Positions 495 through 47,026 of a stretch of 64,000 bases of DNA are shown here, piece after piece. Within the stretch, counting starts at the first letter, position 1. Each line of letters starts with the position of its first letter. The notes under the pieces were generated by a model. It had not been told where the DNA came from and made no database searches. It saw only the letters and a list, made by a program, of their open reading frames with translations. Where the stretch lies: assembly GCA_041821185.1 (NCBI GenBank), contig JBGUBD010000008.1, positions 122,477-186,476 on the forward strand, in the 5' to 3' direction. The stretch comes from Phycisphaerales bacterium AB-hyl4 (lineage in GTDB: Bacteria > Planctomycetota > Phycisphaerae > Phycisphaerales > Phycisphaeraceae). The position numbers and the translations under genes were made by a program.

Positions 495-602
495 CGATTT
501 CGAATTTCGGAATTTCGAATTTCGGATTTCAACACCGCGCAACACGCGGGTAAACTTCCCAGTCCCTGAATCCGAAATCCGAAATCCGAAATCCGAAATT
601 TC
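495..602. repeat. Heptad hairpin repeat, GAAATCC subfamily (two inverted arms)
   Basis: The left arm (495-530) is made of ATTTCGG/ATTTCGA units and the right arm (568-602) of their complement, four GAAATCC-type units with 7-nt spacing. The loop of about 37 nt contains an internal CCGCG..CGCGG element. The right arm ends six bases before the trpD start codon, so no Shine-Dalgarno sequence can be seen there. The same units recur at 4.0, 4.85, 25.4 and 42.9 kb. Confidence 0.85.
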
Positions 603-2592: not shown

Positions 2593-5568
<2,976 letters not shown>

Positions 5569-11817: not shown

Positions 11818-11892
11818 AGCCACAGATAAACGCAGACGCTCACAGATAGAGAAAAATCTCTGATCCGTGTTTATCCGCGTTCATCTGTGGCT
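11818..11892. repeat. Long inverted repeat between convergent genes
   Basis: Two imperfectly complementary arms (11818-11851 and 11857-11892) close on a 5-nt A-rich loop. The outer part AGCCACAGAT is matched by ATCTGTGGCT. The element follows an A8 run and sits 33 bp from the secDF stop. It resembles the CCACAGAT-type intergenic repeats seen in several environmental bacterial phyla. It may end transcription from both sides. Confidence 0.75.
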
Positions 11893-16483: not shown

Positions 16484-17782
16484 TCAGGGCCGAGATTCTA
16501 GCGCATGCGGCCACGCCCGGGCAATCAAAGACCAGTCATTCTGCCGGATCGCCTGCCGTATGTCCAGCATGAGGCGCTGGAAGTGCCTCAGGTTGTGCAG
16601 GCTTACAAGGATGGGCCCGAGCATCTCGCCCGCCTGGAACAGGTGACGGAGGTAGCTTCGGCTGAAGTGGTTTCGAGTTTCTGGTTTCGAGTTTCGAGTT
16701 AAAGGCGAGGCACCGCGGCCGTCAGTCGCCCCTTCCCCAACTCGAAACTCGGAACTCGAAACTCGAAACGATCCGGCGCACGCCGGGCAGTCGCAGCCTT
16801 CTTCGAGCGGGCGGGGGTCGTCCTTGAATTTGGCGTTGCGCAGGCGGACCTGGCCGGCGCGGGTGAAGGCGTTGGCGTTTCGGCCGTTGCGGGTGGGCAG
16901 GACGCAGTCGAACATGTCGACGCCGGCGCGGACCGCGGCGATGATGTCCCGCTCATAGCCGACGCCCATGAGATAGCGTGGCTTATGCTCGGGCAGCAGC
17001 GGTGCGGTGTGCTCGACCACCTCGCGGATGAGGGCGGAGCCTTCGCCGACCGCGACGCCGCCGATCGCGTAGCCGGGCAGGTCGAACTGGGTGACGCGCT
17101 CGGCACACCACGTCCGCTGATCGAGGTCGATACCGCCCTGCACGATGCCGAACAAGCCCTGCCGGGCGTCGCAGCCGCTGGCTTTGTGGGTCTGCACGCA
17201 GCGGTCGAGCCATCGCAGCGTCCGCTCGTTGGCCAGTTTCACACGGTCGAGGTAATCCGCCGGGGCGACCGCGTGCCGCCTCGCCGCGAGCGGGTCGTTC
17301 GTGAGCACTTCGCCGGGCTGCTGCACCGCCGGCGGGCAGTCGTCGAACGCCATGATGATGTCCGCGCCGAGCCCGTGCTGCACCTGCATCGACCGTTCGG
17401 GCGTCAGCTCGATGAGTTGGCCGTTGAGATGGCTGCGGAAGGTCACGCCGTCTTCGCCGATCTTGTTGATGTCCGCCAGGCTGAACACCTGAAACCCGCC
17501 GGAGTCGGTCAGCACCGGCCGACGCCAGTTCATCCACTGCTGCAACCCGCCCATCTGCTCGACCAGCTCCGGCCCCGGCCGAAGCAGCAGGTGGTACGTG
17601 TTCGCCAGCATGATCTGGGCCCCGATCCCCTCGACCTGCCACGGCAGCAACCCCTTGATCGCCGCCTGCGTGCCCACCGGCATAAACGCCGGCGTGTCAA
17701 ACGTTCCATGAGGCGTCGACACCCGCCCCACGCGGGCACGCGTCGTCGTATCTCGATGATCAATAGCGAACTGAATCGGCAT
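16484..17782 (-). CDS. tgt: tRNA-guanine (queuine) transglycosylase
   Basis: Tgt exchanges guanine-34 of GUN tRNAs for preQ1 in queuosine synthesis. The 432-residue product has PHGTFDTPAFMPVGT near the start, LANTYHLLLRPG, the active-site regions DSGGFQVFSL and MAFDDCPP, and GGVAVGEG. The zinc site is unusual: the CDCPAC ligands at about residues 330-335 are followed by an in-frame heptad hairpin (FRVSSSEFRVGEG... SKPETRN, about 35 residues) before SRSYLRHLF and the His ligand in SLHNLRHF. Usually CxCxxC is followed at once by the YSRAYLRHL block, so the repeat has landed between metal ligands while keeping the frame. First gene of a likely tgt-yajC-secDF operon. Confidence 0.95.
   Translation of the reverse strand: MPIQFAIDHRDTTTRARVGRVSTPHGTFDTPAFMPVGTQAAIKGLLPWQVEGIGAQIMLANTYHLLLRPGPELVEQMGGLQQWMNWRRPVLTDSGGFQVFSLADINKIGEDGVTFRSHLNGQLIELTPERSMQVQHGLGADIIMAFDDCPPAVQQPGEVLTNDPLAARRHAVAPADYLDRVKLANERTLRWLDRCVQTHKASGCDARQGLFGIVQGGIDLDQRTWCAERVTQFDLPGYAIGGVAVGEGSALIREVVEHTAPLLPEHKPRYLMGVGYERDIIAAVRAGVDMFDCVLPTRNGRNANAFTRAGQVRLRNAKFKDDPRPLEEGCDCPACAGSFRVSSSEFRVGEGATDGRGASPLTRNSKPETRNHFSRSYLRHLFQAGEMLGPILVSLHNLRHFQRLMLDIRQAIRQNDWSLIARAWPHALESRP
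16669..16769. repeat. Heptad hairpin repeat inside tgt, AGTTTCG subfamily
   Basis: The left arm (16669-16700, GTTTCGA units) and right arm (16739-16769, ACTCGAA units) are inverted around a 38-nt GC-rich loop. The period is exactly 7 in both arms. The element is translated in frame within the zinc-binding region of Tgt. Confidence 0.88.
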
Positions 17783-17790
17783 TTTTAATC

Positions 17791-17904
17791 AGTTTCGGGT
17801 TTCAAGTTCCGAGTTTCGAATTTAAAGCCCTCGCCCGGCCCGGTTCACCAGGCGGGTAACGCTTCGAGCGTTAACTCGAAACTCGGAACTTGAAACTCGA
17901 AACT
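17791..17904. repeat. Heptad hairpin repeat between tgt and the rhomboid gene
   Basis: Inverted arms of AGTTTCG-type units (17791-17822 and 17871-17904) enclose a 48-nt loop that itself contains an inverted CGCTTCGAGCG. The right arm ends four bases before the rhomboid stop codon. The element takes up almost all of the space between the two genes. Confidence 0.88.
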
Positions 17905-19395: not shown

Positions 19396-19418
19396 CTCTC
19401 CCCGCGGGGCAGGGAGTA

Positions 19419-19540
19419 GTTTCTGGTTCCTGGTTTCGAGTTTCTAGTTGGGCAGATCAGTCGGAATTGCTGATTGCTAATCGCTGCCAGAATCGGCGAG
19501 GAGCCCCCAATCAGCGATCAACAATCAGCAATTAGCAATC
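19419..19540. repeat. Two adjacent heptad repeats of different subfamilies
   Basis: A single AGTTTCG-type arm (19419-19448) is followed by a hairpin of the ATTGCTA/G type, with left arm 19466-19482 and right arm 19508-19540. It fills the divergent gap between the NUDIX gene and murC, ending 31 bases before the murC start. Different subfamilies side by side suggest that the sites attract these elements. Confidence 0.82.
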
Positions 19541-22028: not shown

Positions 22029-22132
22029 AATTTCTAATTGCTAATTGCTGATTTCTAATTGGGGGAAGAGCAGATGCAGTCGATGTGTCGGTGTTCTGCA
22101 ATTAGCAATCAGCAATTAGAAATCAGCAATCA
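22029..22132. repeat. Heptad hairpin repeat, ATTGCTA/G subfamily
   Basis: The left arm (22029-22060) and right arm (22099-22132) are inverted, each with four to five 7-nt units, around a 38-nt loop. The element lies between two convergent genes. The right arm contains the stop codon and the last codons of the minus-strand NtrC-type gene. Confidence 0.88.
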
Positions 22133-24217: not shown

Positions 24218-27112
24218 CTACGCCACGCCCACCGCTTCCGCGTCGCGGTCGCTGAGCATGCCCCCATCGCTGCGCTGCTTCACCGAGCCGTCGCGCTTCC
24301 ACGACCGTTCGCAGCGCGGCTCGCTGCGCAGGTCGAGCACTTCCACGCCCGCCGTGTCTTCGCGAAGCTCCACTCGGCTCACCCCGCACAGGTCCGCCAG
24401 ATCCGCCGGCGCGAACACCTTGGCAAACGACTCGGCCTGCTCGCTCACGCCGATCGCCAGCCCGAGGTCCAGCGGGTTGTCGATGTCCATGCGCTGCCGT
24501 GCGTTTTCCATCGCACGCAGCCAACCGTCGCGGGCCTCGATCACCTTCGGCCAGTTCGAGTTCACCACCACCGGCCGCGGCTCGGGCAGCTTCGCCAGGT
24601 GCACGCTCTCCGCGTCATCGCCATGCAGCGCATGCCACGCCTCATCCGCTGTGTGCGGCATCAGCGGCGCGAGCAGCCGAACGATCCCGTCCGCGATCTG
24701 GTGCAACGCCGTCTGCGTTCGCCGACGCCGCGGCGCGTCGGGCTTGTCGCAATACAGTCGATCCTTCACCGCGGTCAGGTACACCGCACTGAGCGTGTCG
24801 TTGCAGAAGTGAAACAGCCGTTCGTGCACGCGCCGGAACTGGTAGCCCTCGTAACTGTCGCGCACTGACGTCACCAGTTTCGCCAGCTCTTCCAACGCCC
24901 ACGCATCAATGCTCGTCGCGTCCGCATCGGTCATCGGCCGAGCGTCCGTCTTCGGGTCGAAATCACTGAGGTTGCTCAACAGGAAACGGATCGTATTGCG
25001 AACCTTGCGATACTCCTCGCCCGCGAGCTTGAAGAACGACTCGTCCACCTTGATGTCGTTGTCCGTGTTCAGCGAGCTGACCCACCATCGGCAAACGTCC
25101 GCGCCATACGTCTTGAGCAGTTCCTCCACCTCCAGCGTATTGCCGAGGCTCTTGCTCATCTTCTTGCCGTCCTTGTCGACCATGAACCCATGGGTCAACA
25201 CCGTGCGGAACGGTGAATGCCCGGTCGCCCCCAGCGACGGCAGCAGCGAGCTTTGGAACCAGCCGCGATGCTGGTCCGACCCTTCCAGGTACAGGTCCGC
25301 CGGGTATCCGAGATGGCGCTGCCGAAGCACGGCATGCCACGACGTGCCCGACTCGAACCAGACGTCGAAGATGTCGTGGCCCTTGCGAATTTCGGATTTC
25401 GGATTTCGGATTTCGGATTTGGCCCACGCCGGTGCGTCGGGGTCGATGTCCGGGTGATAGGTTGCCAGCAGTTCGTTTGCTTCCAGTTGGAACCACGCGT
25501 CCGAGCCTTTTTGCCGGATGACTTCCGCCACTGCCCGCACGCTCGCGGCCGTCAGCAGCACTTCGCCATCTGCGTTGTAGAACGCCGGGATCGGCAGCCC
25601 CCACGCCCGCTGGCGCGACACGCACCAGTCCGGCCGAGACTCCAGCATGCCGCGCATCCGGTTGCGACCCCACGCCGGCATGAACTCCACTTCGTTCGCT
25701 GTCACGTTGAGCGCCCGCTCGCGCAGCGATGTTTGCGTATCATTCTTCCCGTTGCCTGCCTTTTCGTGCACCGCGAACGCCTTGTCCACCGCGATGAACC
25801 ACTGCTCCGTCGCGCGGAAGATCACCGGCGTCTTGCCCCGCCAGTCGTGCGGATAGCTGTGGCGGAACTTGTGGTCGTGGAACAGATGCCCCGATTCGCG
25901 CAAGTGTTCCACCACCGTCTCGTTCGCTTCCCACACCCGCTGCCCGCGCAGCCAACTCGGAGCCGTGTCGTCAAACGTGCCGTCCGGCAGCACGGGGCAA
26001 TAGATCGGCAGCTTCTCGCGCAAGCCCGTCTGATAGTCCTCCACACCATGGCCCGGCGCGGTGTGCACCATGCCCGTACCGTCTTCCAGCGTGACATACT
26101 CCGCACCAACCACGCGGCGCACGTGCTCGTCCTGCGCGAACGGATGGCGATACTCCAGCCCCAGCATCAGGTCGCCGGTGAATGTCGCGATCGGCTCGTC
26201 CACGTTCTCCGCACCCACCACCTGCCCGAGCACCTTCTCCGCCAGGCTGGTCGCCACCACCACGCTCTGCAGCTTGCCGTTGAACGTGACGTTGTAAAGC
26301 CCGTACTCAAACCGCTCGTTCACCGCGACCGCAAGGTTGGCAGGCAGCGTCCAAGGCGTCGTCGTCCAGATCATCAGGTGAATGCGATCCGCAGGCAGCA
26401 CATCGGTCGGCACGGGCAGATGGTTTTCCTGCCACGAGTCATGGTCCGCCTCGAACATCACGAACACGCTCGTGTCTTCGCGGTCTTCGTACTCCAGTTC
26501 CGCCTCCGCCAGCGCCGTCTGATTGTCGATCGACCAGTGCACCGGCTTGAGTCCGCGATACACTACGCCGCGCGACACCAGGTCGGCGAACGCCTCCAGC
26601 ACACCCGCCTCGTACGCCGTGTTCATCGTGAGGTAAGGCTGCTCGTAATTCGCCAACGTCAGCAGCCGCTGCATCTGCTTCGCCTGCAGCTTCACGAACT
26701 TCTCCGCGTACTGCTTGCAGCGCTGGCGGATCTGCATCGGCGCCATCTCGCGTGCTTTTTCGCCGAGGTCCTGCACAACCTTGTGCTCGATCGGCAGGCC
26801 GTGACAGTCCCAGCCGGGCACGTAGGGGCAGTCGAAGCCCGCCATCGTTCGCGAGCGGACGACGAAGTCCTTCATCACCTTGTTCAGCAGATGCCCCAGG
26901 TGAATCGACCCGTTCGCGTAAGGCGGGCCGTCGTGAAAGACGAACCGCCCCAGCGGATGTGGCTTATCGCGCAGCGTGCGGTAAAGCTCCGCCTCTTCCC
27001 ACCGCTTCAACGAGGCCGGCTCGTTCTGCACGAGGTTGGCCTTCATCGAAAAGCCGGTCTTCGGCAGGTTCAGCGTCTTCTTGTACGTCCGATTGTCAGC
27101 TTGCTGGCTCAT
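24218..27112 (-). CDS. ileS: Isoleucyl-tRNA synthetase
   Basis: IleRS charges tRNA-Ile. The 964-residue class I enzyme has HLGH at residues 71-74 (the HIGH signature), the CP1 editing domain with TTPWTLPANLAVAV and GTGMVHTAPGHG, the WFESGTSWHAVL block and KMSKSLGN around 651. A heptad repeat arm is inserted in frame near residue 562 ([13 protein letters not shown]), just before DVWFESGTS. The C-terminal zinc finger seen in long IleRS proteins is degenerate: RCERSWKRDGSV keeps only the first Cys of a CxxC pair and no second pair follows. A possible attenuator lies upstream. Confidence 0.97.
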   Translation of the reverse strand: MSQQADNRTYKKTLNLPKTGFSMKANLVQNEPASLKRWEEAELYRTLRDKPHPLGRFVFHDGPPYANGSIHLGHLLNKVMKDFVVRSRTMAGFDCPYVPGWDCHGLPIEHKVVQDLGEKAREMAPMQIRQRCKQYAEKFVKLQAKQMQRLLTLANYEQPYLTMNTAYEAGVLEAFADLVSRGVVYRGLKPVHWSIDNQTALAEAELEYEDREDTSVFVMFEADHDSWQENHLPVPTDVLPADRIHLMIWTTTPWTLPANLAVAVNERFEYGLYNVTFNGKLQSVVVATSLAEKVLGQVVGAENVDEPIATFTGDLMLGLEYRHPFAQDEHVRRVVGAEYVTLEDGTGMVHTAPGHGVEDYQTGLREKLPIYCPVLPDGTFDDTAPSWLRGQRVWEANETVVEHLRESGHLFHDHKFRHSYPHDWRGKTPVIFRATEQWFIAVDKAFAVHEKAGNGKNDTQTSLRERALNVTANEVEFMPAWGRNRMRGMLESRPDWCVSRQRAWGLPIPAFYNADGEVLLTAASVRAVAEVIRQKGSDAWFQLEANELLATYHPDIDPDAPAWAKSEIRNPKSEIRKGHDIFDVWFESGTSWHAVLRQRHLGYPADLYLEGSDQHRGWFQSSLLPSLGATGHSPFRTVLTHGFMVDKDGKKMSKSLGNTLEVEELLKTYGADVCRWWVSSLNTDNDIKVDESFFKLAGEEYRKVRNTIRFLLSNLSDFDPKTDARPMTDADATSIDAWALEELAKLVTSVRDSYEGYQFRRVHERLFHFCNDTLSAVYLTAVKDRLYCDKPDAPRRRRTQTALHQIADGIVRLLAPLMPHTADEAWHALHGDDAESVHLAKLPEPRPVVVNSNWPKVIEARDGWLRAMENARQRMDIDNPLDLGLAIGVSEQAESFAKVFAPADLADLCGVSRVELREDTAGVEVLDLRSEPRCERSWKRDGSVKQRSDGGMLSDRDAEAVGVA
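25387..25420. repeat. Heptad repeat arm inside ileS
   Basis: About five ATTTCGG units at exact 7-nt spacing lie in frame in ileS and are read on the minus strand as [11 protein letters not shown]. No opposing arm is present. The insertion precedes the conserved DVWFESG block, a surface loop in the family. Confidence 0.85.
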
Positions 27113-28283: not shown

Positions 28284-28455
28284 ACACGTCGCCGGGCGTG
28301 CTGTTGCAAAGCGTAAGTGAGGATGGCAAGTGACTGGTGAACTGTGGATGACCCCGTTGGACTGACGTTTTCCCATGACCGACTCGATTTGCTCCCGCGC
28401 CCCCTCGAGCGTCGGGTCGGCCATGGGAAAACGACAGTCGACATGAGTATGCGTG

Positions 28456-41059: not shown

Positions 41060-42889
41060 TCAAGCGTAGGGGCCGACGCCGTTGCCGTTTTCAGGCGTCA
41101 GGCCACGCAGGCCGTGCAGCAGCGGGACGAGGCGGTGCTCGACGACCTGGTCCCAGCCCATTTTCTTCACCAAGGCCTGGCCGGACTTGATCAGGGCGGC
41201 CCGCTGCTTGTCGTTGAACGGGATACGAGCCATCAGGTCGTCCGCCACCTCGCGGGCGACGCGGGCCTCGATGATGTCGCGCTGCGTCTGGTCGATCGCG
41301 AGCATGTCGTGCAGCGTGCCGTCGTGGTCGATCTGCGTGAAGTCGGCGACGATCACGTTGTCCGGCCGATCGCCATCGATCACCGCATCGACAAACCCAC
41401 GGCAGCCGCACACATTCGAAAACACACACACCGCCCCCGAGCCCAACGGCTCAAGCGGGCTGATGCCGAACGGCTCGTAGGTCGCCATGCCAAACTCAAC
41501 ATCCGTCGCCCGGCGGAAGTCGGCGATGGTCATGTCCTTCGGCAGCCGCCTGCCGATGCGATCGCGCGACCAGCCGAACTGGTTGACGAGCACGATCTGC
41601 AGATGATCGTGGCTCGCGTTGAACGGCTCGATCATGTGTTGGATGTCGACTTCCGGGCCGACGAGGTCGGGGAAGCCATGGCGGTGATGCCGGGGCCAGC
41701 CGTACTGCTGCTCCATGTGGGCCACGTCCTGCGGCCGCCGCACGCCGCCGCCGGAGGTGAGGATGTAGAGGATGCCCTTCTTTTTCTTCTTGCCAAGCTG
41801 CGCGTCGAGTTCGTGACAGACTTTCACATCACGCCAGAGGCCCTTGCTGACCACGGGGCGGGTGACGTGGGTCATGAGCACGTCCGGCTCGTAGCCGACG
41901 AGCTTCTTCGAATACTCGGCGAGCATCGCCCGGCTGTCGTTCCGCTGCTTCAGCGTGATCGCCGGCGCGGGGATGCCGTTGTAGACAAGCTGCACGGGGT
42001 GCTCATCAAACGGCTGGTTGAGGAAGTGCAGTTCGTCGCGGGTGTGGTCGCCGACCGCGATCACGCCGTCGCACAGATGCGCCCGGCTGATGAGGGCGTG
42101 GCGGAGGAAGGCGTCCTGGCTACCGTAGACGTCGTCGACGTAGAGCCCCTGCTCGCGTGCTTTGCGGAGCACGTTGTAGAACATCGTGTCGTGGCCGGGG
42201 TTGTCTTCGACGAGTCGACGGGCGGTGGCGCACTCGTGGGCGTGGAAGACGGTACGGAACTTGTCGCCGCCGTCGAGGATGGCCTGCAGCGCCGCGGGCA
42301 TGCCCATGTACTCGTGGGCGAACAGCACGCAAGGCCAGTCTTCCTCACTCAGCAAGCCCTGCAACGCGTAGAAGGCGGGCTCGGCGAGGCGGACGTATTC
42401 TTCGTAGTCCCAGCTTTTTTCATATCGGCCGCTGTCGATGCCGAAGCGTTCCCAGAGGCGGAGCTTGAAGACGTTCAGGCGGTCGGGGTTGGCGCGGAAC
42501 ACGTCGATCAGCAGCACTTCGGACTCGCCCTTGCGGTCCTGGCCCGGCGGGTCGTAATAGCGCTTGCCGTAGACGATCGCAACGTTGAACGCCCACTCCA
42601 CCGGGCGGAACTTGCCCGCCAGCCCGGCCTTGTCGATCTGGTCGATGGACGAGTAGAGCACTTCGCCATGCTCGCCGAGGCGGTTGGCGGGGTCGGCCTG
42701 AATGTGCGTCGCCGTGGGCCCGATGAGGATCGACCGCTTCACCGACTGCTGATACACCGGCGAGGTGATGAGCCCTTCCAGCACCGTGCCGATGCCGCCA
42801 AGCTGCTCCACCGCCTCGTGCGTCACGTGGGCGAGGGTGAGGGGGTTTTGAATGTCGGATTTCGAATTTCGGATTTCGGATTTCTTCAT
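41060..42889 (-). CDS. Glycogen synthase-like glycosyltransferase
   Basis: The 609-residue protein resembles glycogen/starch synthases. Readable blocks include GGIGTVLEGLITS near the start (donor-binding loop of the GT fold), AHEYMGMPAALQAILD, FHAHECATARRL, VYNGIPAPAITL, a LILTSGGG-type stretch, and the C-terminal ATYEPFGISPLEPLGSG with the E-x7-E pair. It most resembles the planctomycete version of this family, closer to GT3/GT5 than to E. coli GlgA. The start is uncertain: the ATG at 42889 and an upstream TTG at 42913 are in frame, and the first 16 residues (KKSEIRNSKSDIQNP) are encoded by a heptad repeat. Confidence 0.82.
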   Translation of the reverse strand: MKKSEIRNSKSDIQNPLTLAHVTHEAVEQLGGIGTVLEGLITSPVYQQSVKRSILIGPTATHIQADPANRLGEHGEVLYSSIDQIDKAGLAGKFRPVEWAFNVAIVYGKRYYDPPGQDRKGESEVLLIDVFRANPDRLNVFKLRLWERFGIDSGRYEKSWDYEEYVRLAEPAFYALQGLLSEEDWPCVLFAHEYMGMPAALQAILDGGDKFRTVFHAHECATARRLVEDNPGHDTMFYNVLRKAREQGLYVDDVYGSQDAFLRHALISRAHLCDGVIAVGDHTRDELHFLNQPFDEHPVQLVYNGIPAPAITLKQRNDSRAMLAEYSKKLVGYEPDVLMTHVTRPVVSKGLWRDVKVCHELDAQLGKKKKKGILYILTSGGGVRRPQDVAHMEQQYGWPRHHRHGFPDLVGPEVDIQHMIEPFNASHDHLQIVLVNQFGWSRDRIGRRLPKDMTIADFRRATDVEFGMATYEPFGISPLEPLGSGAVCVFSNVCGCRGFVDAVIDGDRPDNVIVADFTQIDHDGTLHDMLAIDQTQRDIIEARVAREVADDLMARIPFNDKQRAALIKSGQALVKKMGWDQVVEHRLVPLLHGLRGLTPENGNGVGPYA

Positions 42890-42991
42890 GTATCGTCCCA
42901 ATTCAGCCAGCAAGTCTTATGCGGGAACAACCCGTCCGCCAAGCTCGAAACAAATCCGAAATTCGAAATTCGAAATCCCCAAATTCCCAAT
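42855..42991. repeat. Heptad hairpin repeat between ilvN and the glycogen synthase gene
   Basis: The left arm (42855-42886, ATTTCGG units) lies in the first codons of the glycogen synthase gene, and the right arm (42953-42991, GAAATCC/GAAATTC units) abuts the ilvN stop codon. The loop is about 66 nt. This shows the element replacing the normal gene boundary. Confidence 0.85.
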
Positions 42992-43597
42992 TCAGCCCGG
43001 CGGCAGGTCGGCGTCGTCCACGCCGCTGTCGGCCGGGCCTTCGCTGGGCTTGCCGCGGCGGGCCGTGCCAGCCAAGGCGGGGCGGTCGGACGAGGTCGCC
43101 CGGCCGCGCGGCATGGCGATAATGCCCGTCCGTGCCAGTTCCACAATGCCATAGGGCTGCACAAGATCAATAAACGCCTCGATCTTGCCCTCCGTGCCCG
43201 CCAGTTCGACCATCAGCCGATCGGACGCCACGTCCACCACCTTCGCGCGGAACAGGTCGGCAATGGTGATGATCTCCTGCCGTTTGTGGGCATCGCCCAC
43301 CGCGACCTGCACCAGCATAAGATCGCGCTCGACGAAGGCCGTGTCCTGGTAGTCGACCACTTTCACCACCGGCACGAGCTTCTGCAACTGCTTGCGCACC
43401 TGCTCGAGCACGGCGTCGTCGCCGCTGACGACGATCGTCATCCGCGACAGTTCGGGGTTATCTGTTCGTCCGACCACCAGCGAGTCAATATTGAACCCGC
43501 GGGCGGCGAACATGCCCGCCACCTGCGCCAAGACGCCCGGCTCGTTGGTCACCAGCGCCGCGATCACGTGACGCCACGTTTGGGAAGTTTCGCTCAT
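42992..43597 (-). CDS. ilvN: Acetolactate synthase small (regulatory) subunit
   Basis: The small subunit binds valine and regulates acetohydroxyacid synthase, the first step of branched-chain amino acid synthesis. The 201-residue protein has the ACT domain at the start (HVIAALVTNEPGVLAQVAGMFAARGFNIDSL) and a second ACT-like domain (ERDLMLVQVAVGDAHKRQEI). The last 40 residues are Gly/Ala/Arg-rich and not conserved in character, reaching into a heptad repeat. The large subunit ilvB is not adjacent. Confidence 0.93.
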   Translation of the reverse strand: MSETSQTWRHVIAALVTNEPGVLAQVAGMFAARGFNIDSLVVGRTDNPELSRMTIVVSGDDAVLEQVRKQLQKLVPVVKVVDYQDTAFVERDLMLVQVAVGDAHKRQEIITIADLFRAKVVDVASDRLMVELAGTEGKIEAFIDLVQPYGIVELARTGIIAMPRGRATSSDRPALAGTARRGKPSEGPADSGVDDADLPPG

Positions 43598-46952: not shown

Positions 46953-47026
46953 TCTCAGGCTTCAGGCGAAGCGACTGAAGTCGTTCATCCTCAAACTCAA
47001 GCCCCAGGCCTCAGGCCTCAAGCCCC
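46953..47026. repeat. Heptad repeats of the CAGGCCT type plus CTGAAG hairpin
   Basis: A CTTAAG-type hairpin (46968-46986, AAGCGACT/AGTCGTT) is flanked by CAGGCTT and a row of 7-nt units CAAGCCC/CAGGCCT (46994-47026). Here the heptad row lacks a proper opposing arm. It lies between the pilin-type operon and the isomerase gene. Confidence 0.7.

Follow-up and report, generated by a model that had tools for sequence, protein, structure and literature searches.

The heptad hairpins of this stretch of DNA are read here as short, non-autonomous, MITE-like insertion units that nest in one another and whose arms are kept alike by slippage. The probability given to this reading is a little under one half (about 0.47). 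Copying of whole hairpins is indicated because orthologous sites are empty, because the polarity of the arms is constant within each dialect in three genomes and because a further genome, G051, carries multi-copy elements that include a core. The elements occupy intergenic space or protein loops that tolerate extra residues. The original prediction had pointed to slippage rather than a transposon, and this opposition is not supported, since the empty sites point to arms and loop arriving together and polarity is fixed per dialect in the three genomes.

The window, that is the whole stretch of 64,000 nt that was analysed (C8:122477-186476), belongs to a genome of 4.57 Mb in 32 contigs. All seven hairpins that had been predicted were recovered with Tandem Repeats Finder (TRF), an inverted-repeat search and our own scans, as were the single arms at 4019, 19419 and 25387 (Table 1). 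For the predicted row at 46994, AGGCCTC units are visible by eye, but the row is weak and absent from the TRF list. Under a strict rule (defined below) the window contains 17 period-7 arrays and four adjacent inverted-concordant pairs, and 60 Markov-1 versions of it gave eight arrays in total and no pairs, which bears out the expectation that the counts exceed chance.

Table 1. Heptad hairpins, single arms and a doubtful row in the window (positions counted from its first letter).
Feature	Dialect or unit	Position	Strand	Context or evidence
Heptad hairpin	AATYCGA	496..602 (left arm ~496-530, right arm ~569-602)	.	TRF, inverted repeats
Single arm	AATYCGA	4023..4052	+	In frame within gcvP (glycine dehydrogenase, ORF 2593-5568 +)
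Whole heptad hairpin	AATYCGA	4845..4929	.	In frame within gcvP, residues ~750-781
Heptad hairpin	AACTCGA	16669..16770	.	In frame within tgt, residues ~340-372
Heptad hairpin	AACTCGA	17791..17904	.	Between tgt and rhomboid gene
Single arm	AACTMGA-like	19418..19449	-	15 nt ahead of hairpin 19465..19540
Heptad hairpin	AATYAGM	19465..19540	.	Intergenic, upstream of Mur ligase gene
Heptad hairpin	AATYAGM	22029..22132	.	Between TIM-barrel gene and sigma-54 regulator gene
Single arm	AATCCGA	25388..25419	-	In frame within ileS (ORF 24218-27112 -)
Heptad hairpin	AATYCGA	42844..42992 (left arm 42844-42882)	.	
Doubtful unpaired row	AGGCCTC-like	46994..47025	+	By eye; not in TRF list

Coding sequence is involved in three of the seven window hairpins: those at 4845-4929 and 16669-16770, and the one with its left arm at 42844-42882. 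This arm overlaps the 5' end of a called gene (41060-42889, minus strand), and the right arm of the same hairpin abuts the acetolactate synthase small subunit gene. The first hairpin takes up the space from a called ORF that ends at 488 to one that starts at 608; the second of these ORFs has glycosyl transferase family domains (Glycos_transf_3) and we take it to be trpD-like. The final bases of hairpin 22029..22132 overlap the called end (22123) of the sigma-54 regulator gene. The tgt gene (queuine tRNA-ribosyltransferase) is the ORF 16484-17782 on the minus strand, and the 12-residue peptide encoded by the ileS arm lies in a length-variable loop of IleS. Inverted repeats of a different, non-heptad kind with arms of 28-30 nt are also present in the window, at 11818-11892 and 28360-28439.

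Placement relative to genes was determined with gene calls from a home-made gene caller. Intergenic clusters number 33 of 52, compared with 8.2 expected, and they lie close to where a neighbouring gene ends, the median distance being 3 nt to a stop and 73 nt to a start. Of the 81 arms with at least four heptad cores, 20 lie within called genes; those in the window include arms in gcvP (two places), ileS and tgt. None of the 20 arms of the stop-bearing dialect AATYAGM is in a called gene compared with 20 of 61 for the other three dialects (Fisher p 0.002), a contrast that is partly built in because the gene caller cannot cross a stop. Since 7 and 3 have no common factor, an array gives the same seven codons in whichever frame it is read, and a stop-free word adds no stop; 8264 of the 16384 possible 7-nt words are stop-free on both strands.

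Another feature that emerges is that the period stays at 7 while the sequence of the unit is free. This part of the prediction was confirmed in the genome of the window and in six other genomes of the same phylum that were read at base level. The sample of the window's genome was 864 kb, made up of two 400 kb stretches and the window. Under a strict rule, in which adjacent period-7 arrays must have units that are reverse complements within one letter, inverted pairs searched at periods 4-21 numbered 19 at period 7, four at 14, two at 8 and none at any other. In 644 kb of G051 there were 127 at period 7, 60 at 14, five at 21, one at 9 and none otherwise. Arrays regardless of pairing are a different matter, with 93 at period 6, 62 at 9, 62 at 12 and 89 at 7 in the window's genome. 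AT-rich arrays number 40 at period 7, 25 at 14 and at most six at any other period. What is specific to 7 is therefore the inverted pairs and the AT-rich arrays, not arrays as such. Genome-wide, the pattern AAYYNNN AAYYNNN AAYYNNN AAYY (at most one mismatch) occurs at 850 positions, several per array, compared with 42 for the reversed control. Neighbouring arrays also agree with each other far more often than re-pairing gives: adjacent arrays are inverted-concordant in 19 of 25 cases in the window's genome (re-pairing mean 6.7, maximum 13), 127 of 154 in G051 (mean 49.7, maximum of 500 re-pairings 64), 51 of 63 in G173 (mean 21.2, maximum 32) and 9 of 22 in four further genomes pooled (mean 1.7, maximum 5).

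A looser rule, accepting the expected arm order alone, gave 29 hairpins in the 864 kb. A first pass without the order condition had given 31 neighbouring pairs, 28 in the expected order, two '--' and one '+-', together with 36 single arms; by eye, the three off-order pairs are parts of different elements joined, or a chance match. The predicted arms of 28-39 nt and loops of 20-70 nt are corrected by these 29 hairpins. Of their 58 arms, 31 are 32 nt long (five cores) and 11 are 39 nt long, and the loops range from 17 to 78 nt. The loops had also been called unrelated, and in the window's genome this largely holds, as only 3 of the 29 match elsewhere in the 864 kb, but a conserved core is found in another genus (G051).

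Four dialects are present in the window's genome: AATYCGA, AACTMGA, AATYAGM and AACSAGA. Certain positions of the unit are nearly fixed in each and the rest are variable. Most of the AATYAGM dialect consists of two words, AATCAGC (18 of 46 units) and AATTAGA (13 of 46), which arrays mix in free order. Within dialects of at least three pairs polarity is constant in 19/19 pairs in the window's genome, 125/125 in G051 and 50/50 in G173, a total of 194/194. The T-rich word forms the left arm in the window's genome. A universal rule of this kind is ruled out by G051, where the A-rich words AATTAAC and AAAAGGG, and also AAAGTTG, form the left arm. Polarity is no law of the word itself either, because AACTCGA-like pairs of G006 run in both orders (by eye, among the arrays listed, the A-rich word is the left one in five pairs and the right one in two). 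Strong matching of the two arms of one element beyond their dialect was not seen, the mean rank of a left arm's fit to its own right arm among same-dialect right arms being 0.38, 0.46 and 0.43.

The evidence for insertion comes from orthologous genes. In tgt the insert is absent from 18 of 19 aligned orthologues, of which 13 are bare and five carry a small number of additional residues, and the best solved structure and many relatives are continuous across the insert site. The aligned sequences indicate that both arms and the loop arrived as one insertion, at least in tgt. The idea that the arms flank a pre-existing segment is ruled out for this gene, as the loop is also new. The nineteenth orthologue, that of G006, has a hairpin at the identical place in another dialect (CCCGATA, compared with AACTCGA in the window). 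The two tgt insertions may reflect either recurrence or replacement of one dialect by another: the IleRS tree does not resolve the two genomes as sisters, nor does it separate them. No target-site duplication is visible at tgt, where even the closest proteins with an empty site differ by about 30%. The flanks of the 29 hairpins are merely G-rich on the left and C-rich on the right, and the arms are inverted yet tandem and variable.

Similar situations exist in gcvP and ileS. The gcvP hairpin is absent from all 13 aligned orthologues, an alignment that left out six genomes with a split GcvP, and the IleS arm is absent from 19 aligned orthologues. The loops themselves are not free of other inserts. 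In G017 the gcvP loop that matches the site of the window's hairpin has a heptad array of AAAATCG, and in G003 and G005 the same loop has other long inserts. The G003 insert, in the loop matching residues 750-781, is of different sequence and encodes PPTGGTPVCG. G006 ileS has CTCAAGC-like units in the loop that holds the arm in the window, and G011 IleS has a heptad-like peptide there by eye that is absent from a stricter scan. A scan of these orthologues for arrays found five places, counting the two arms of G006 tgt as one, and three of these five coincide with the loop used in the window. Since the loops that bear inserts are free in length, the simplest explanation is that insertion has happened repeatedly.

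G051 and G173 belong to one genus and are mostly 89-97% identical in shared stretches; their comparison covers less than 100 kb of matching sequence, paralogues included. Counting both genomes there are 88 array clusters, 82 of them anchored and 68 with one or more arrays at the matching place in the partner genome. Just 14 of the 82 anchored clusters lack such a counterpart, and clean empty sites are few among them, so recent insertion is rarely caught in this pair. Merging the clusters gives 48 sites, of which 24 were scored, 23 are not paired in both genomes and one is too long; a concordant hairpin in both genomes is a condition of the 24-site count and not a result of it. The left-arm unit differs by no letters at 12 of these sites, by one at five, two at three and four at four. 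Seven of the 24 have therefore switched by at least two letters, four of them clearly. By eye, remains of another dialect surround the hairpin at four of the seven switched sites, including three of the four clear switches. These are a CCCTTTT hairpin within an AATTAAA hairpin, together with relics of CCCTTTT, AACTCT and AATTGT arrays directly outside the right arm. One extra site, outside the 24-site count, has two dialects and a related core between the same flanks.

The 644 kb of G051 also contain 30 listed multi-copy elements of 118-168 bp, made up of arms and core, with 42-62 matches of at least 60 nt each. Related cores, GTGGAGTTT.AT...GCGCGAAGCGC, were found on comparison by eye under both AATTAAC and AGAGTTT arms, and by eye related cores also occur under AGTGGGC and AGTTGGT arms.

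Various other repeats were observed in these genomes. G173 has a MITE-like insert of ~150-170 bp with the ends AGACCTGTTCGA...GAACAGGTCTA that is absent from G051 at three sites; the G173 sites match G051 C12:11729, C42:5063 and C43:16340. The G051 segment C3:12859-13730 has many partial matches in G173, and separate multi-copy ORFs of G051 resemble chemotaxis receptors by eye. In the window's genome a second hairpin family, AAGCCCACGGAT...ATCCGTGGGCTT, is found inside or beside heptad arms (in the loop of C1:169534-169675, at C1:98240 and at C2:54117), and 32 more matches to the loop at C1:169534 were counted in the 864 kb. A repeat CCGAGCCCTGAGCGAGTCCGCGAGCGAAGGGCCGGATC, or a near-identical one, is found beside or inside heptad elements in the loop of C2:83941-84069, at C1:9643 and at C2:193678; the loop at C2:83941 has seven further matches.

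How might the MITE-like units spread? An activity encoded at another locus would act in trans and copy whole hairpins to further sites. They may prefer older hairpins as sites of insertion, or be best tolerated there, and insertion of hairpin into hairpin would give an appearance of conserved sites although one dialect gives way to another. Within the arms, slippage or unequal exchange would maintain both the likeness of the units and the period of 7. Among the points that count against copying, the loops of the window's genome are almost never common to copies (3/29), and the order of units, which is expected to be kept from a copied master, is mostly near chance. It is common to copies in the AATT dialect of G051 (8269 compared with 7750, sd 45, 0/2000) and stands out from the 3' side in the AACTCT dialect of G173 (6/2000 at or above the observed value). 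From the 5' side in the window's genome it is at or near chance (139, 1016 and 149 of 2000), and it is also near chance in the AACTCT dialect of G051 (1176/2000) and the AATT dialect of G173 (319/2000).

It is possible, though we consider it doubtful, that the hairpins form a mobile class that is defined by its period and not by its sequence, in which the word is exchangeable while core or site stays, the class occurs, with some of its words in common, in at least six bacterial phyla, and the machinery would recognise or count seven bases. The hairpin of two GGATTTC units, 20-50 nt and two GAAATCC units, searched for in this one polarity only, occurs in 64 stretches of GTDB contigs, nearly all of them metagenome bins. 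Their titles name Bacteroidota, Pseudomonadota, Acidobacteria, Chloroflexi, Planctomycetia and Desulfobacterales, and there is an isolate, Fibrella rubiginis HMF5335, among the Bacteroidota matches. Polarity agrees in 67 of 69 cases at the 64 loci and is opposite in two, which is mostly selection as the loci were chosen by polarity. Some of the Pseudomonadota loops have a GC-rich core in common. Within the phylum of the window's genome a loose pattern is found, patchily, in 217 of 392 sampled genomes; this count mixes base composition with real arrays, the reversed control is also high in some genomes, and it serves as a map only. There are relatives of the same family without the heptad pattern.

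Partner enzymes were sought in 20 heptad-rich and 20 heptad-poor genomes. The Y1 transposase family was found in 18 of the rich and 13 of the poor, and a required partnership is disfavoured, as no match was found in the rich genomes G163 and G132 (85 and 88% complete). The window's genome has one Y1 match above the cut-off (37/121 positions). RVT_1 was found in 16 of the rich and 14 of the poor genomes, and as the writer of heptads it was rejected because it was not found in the rich genomes G173, G223, G199 and G400, some genomes being incomplete. At least one of the two families is present in 20/20 rich genomes, and neither is found in the poor genomes G013, G018, G072 and G111. Among the Y1 and RVT_1 families, then, no mobilising enzyme is tied to the hairpins. 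Heptad richness may be weakly linked to genome size or to a general wealth of mobile genes. The sole RVT_1 match in the window's genome is at C8:115314-115847, ~6.6 kb before the start of the window.

It has also been proposed that heptads arise by slippage, 7 nt being the stretch that a polymerase holds, as the available parts of two reports state (PMC4679880, PMC4692102). Applied to the present hairpins, slippage and template switching by ordinary polymerases would both create and rewrite the arms on the spot. This is somewhat unlikely as a complete explanation. Period 7 is favoured whatever the sequence, the order of units is near random in most dialects, and the mixed polarity of the AACTCGA-like arrays listed for G006, judged by eye, is in its favour, as is the absence of Y1 and of RVT_1 each from some rich genomes, though 0/20 lack both. 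In G173 one arm exceeds its counterpart at the orthologous G051 site by 70 nt (10 units). To this extent the predicted slippage stands, as a process that acts on the arms; as the sole account it is not supported, whole-hairpin copying being indicated. The tgt loop and both arms, which appear to be a single insertion, argue against writing on the spot, and so do the same hairpin word in several phyla, one kind of core under several dialects and the per-dialect polarity in three genomes, though a fold-back copy could land on either side.

It is improbable that the arms are binding arrays with one 7-bp site per protein dimer, the hairpin being two arrays that face each other. The model for this is Omega, a ribbon-helix-helix protein that, in the available text of PMC9499535, binds contiguous 7-bp repeats in direct or inverted orientation and needs at least four of them to activate its partner ATPase fully; the commonest number of cores per arm here is five. 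In the part of the Geobacter metallireducens study that was available (PMC2700814), class 3 of the putative regulator sites has mostly five heptads and such classes are mostly paired. However, the dialects are many and unrelated, each replacement of a dialect at a fixed site would require a new specificity, and arms lie in the coding sequence of gcvP, ileS and tgt. The Omega consensus WATCACW is not among the four dialects of the window's genome, and AATCACA occurs once in the 46 units of one dialect.

We think it equally improbable that the hairpins act in RNA, shielding or punctuating transcripts, and are kept by selection. All seven window hairpins are more stable than shuffles, with z of -5.9 (496..602), -3.7 (4845..4929), -8.2 (16669..16770), -9.5 (17791..17904), -4.3 (19465..19540), -4.6 (22029..22132) and -6.4 (42844..42992), and the closeness of intergenic clusters to 3' ends fits such a role. 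Good folding follows from the inverted arms, however, and is no proof of function. A stem can form without tandem heptads, the fit of a left arm to its own right arm hardly exceeds its fit to the other right arms of its dialect, and relatives of the same family manage without the pattern. At Rfam gathering cut-offs the hairpins have no match, tRNA being the sole family matched in the window. An enzyme that writes heptads onto DNA ends, such as a telomerase-like reverse transcriptase with a short template, would fit the narrow range of arm lengths, the constant polarity in three genomes and the free order of AATCAGC and AATTAGA in two-word arrays, but it is very improbable, as it leaves the inserted loop unaccounted for and RVT_1 was not found in four rich genomes, some of the genomes being incomplete.

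The MITE-like units can be compared with several known systems. MITEs are short, non-coding, dispersed insertions with facing ends and empty orthologous sites. The present hairpins resemble them in unit insertion with empty orthologous sites (tgt 18/19, gcvP 13/13), but here the arms are tandem arrays of changeable sequence, with no defined terminal repeat or established target duplication. REP/REPIN elements, which are associated with TnpA-REP, are short hairpins of high copy number that occur as inverted pairs and spread non-autonomously. The present elements share the first three of these features and would spread in the same way, but we know of no tandem heptads in REP/REPIN elements, and two heptad-rich genomes gave no match to the Y1 transposase family.

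Heptads have been described in several bacteria. Rehm et al. 2015 (PMC4692102), in the text available, report GGGAATC heptads in Xanthomonas, with 70 and 75 convergent inverted pairs in two genomes. They are 89-93% intergenic, have mostly four units and lie nearer the 5' neighbouring ORF; most of them have the same neighbouring genes in two species, while their length and sequence vary extensively. They are like the present ones in period, in being mostly intergenic and in having inverted pairs of one polarity (19/19 in the window's genome). They differ in being one G-rich word that is read as a G-quadruplex former, and the available text describes no dialect replacement, empty sites or core. 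Cyanobacterial heptads had been thought analogous in period and not in inverted arms, which is contradicted by the available part of PMC3488679, where a hairpin is formed by the heptads of the Nostoc tRNA-Leu intron. As far as that part goes, the likeness extends to facing heptad arms, to two repeat-motif classes that related strains carry at a single site and to a varying number of units; Nostoc has a single intron locus, whereas the present elements are many, dispersed and in some cases in coding genes. The TAACTGA heptads of marine Beggiatoaceae, in the accessible portion of PMC4679880, also have period 7, are intergenic and occur in many copies. G. metallireducens has, besides its class 3 sites, a separate family of 49 elements of four heptads (PMC2700814). 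The Geobacter elements are similar in their four or five tandem heptads, their many copies and their classes paired on opposite strands at variable distance; they differ in being read as regulator sites, with no dialects or empty sites described in the available text. Inverted heptad pairs and heptad hairpins are therefore already known from Xanthomonas and Nostoc. The empty sites, dialect replacement and shared core appear to be new. For the latter two no published description was found in a search that left subscription literature mostly outside.

Heptad hairpins account for low-complexity peptides, such as NPKSEIR, within conserved enzymes. The general excess of heptads in bacteria has been called unexplained (PMC6344855, in the part available), and words that differ between elements and species at a constant length of seven sharpen the puzzle of bacterial seven-base repeats. 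Why should the length be kept when the word is not? Nothing shown here supplies a reason for period 7. The empty and filled sites of tgt, together with the differences of dialect between close genomes, make the puzzle testable in terms of insertion and nesting.
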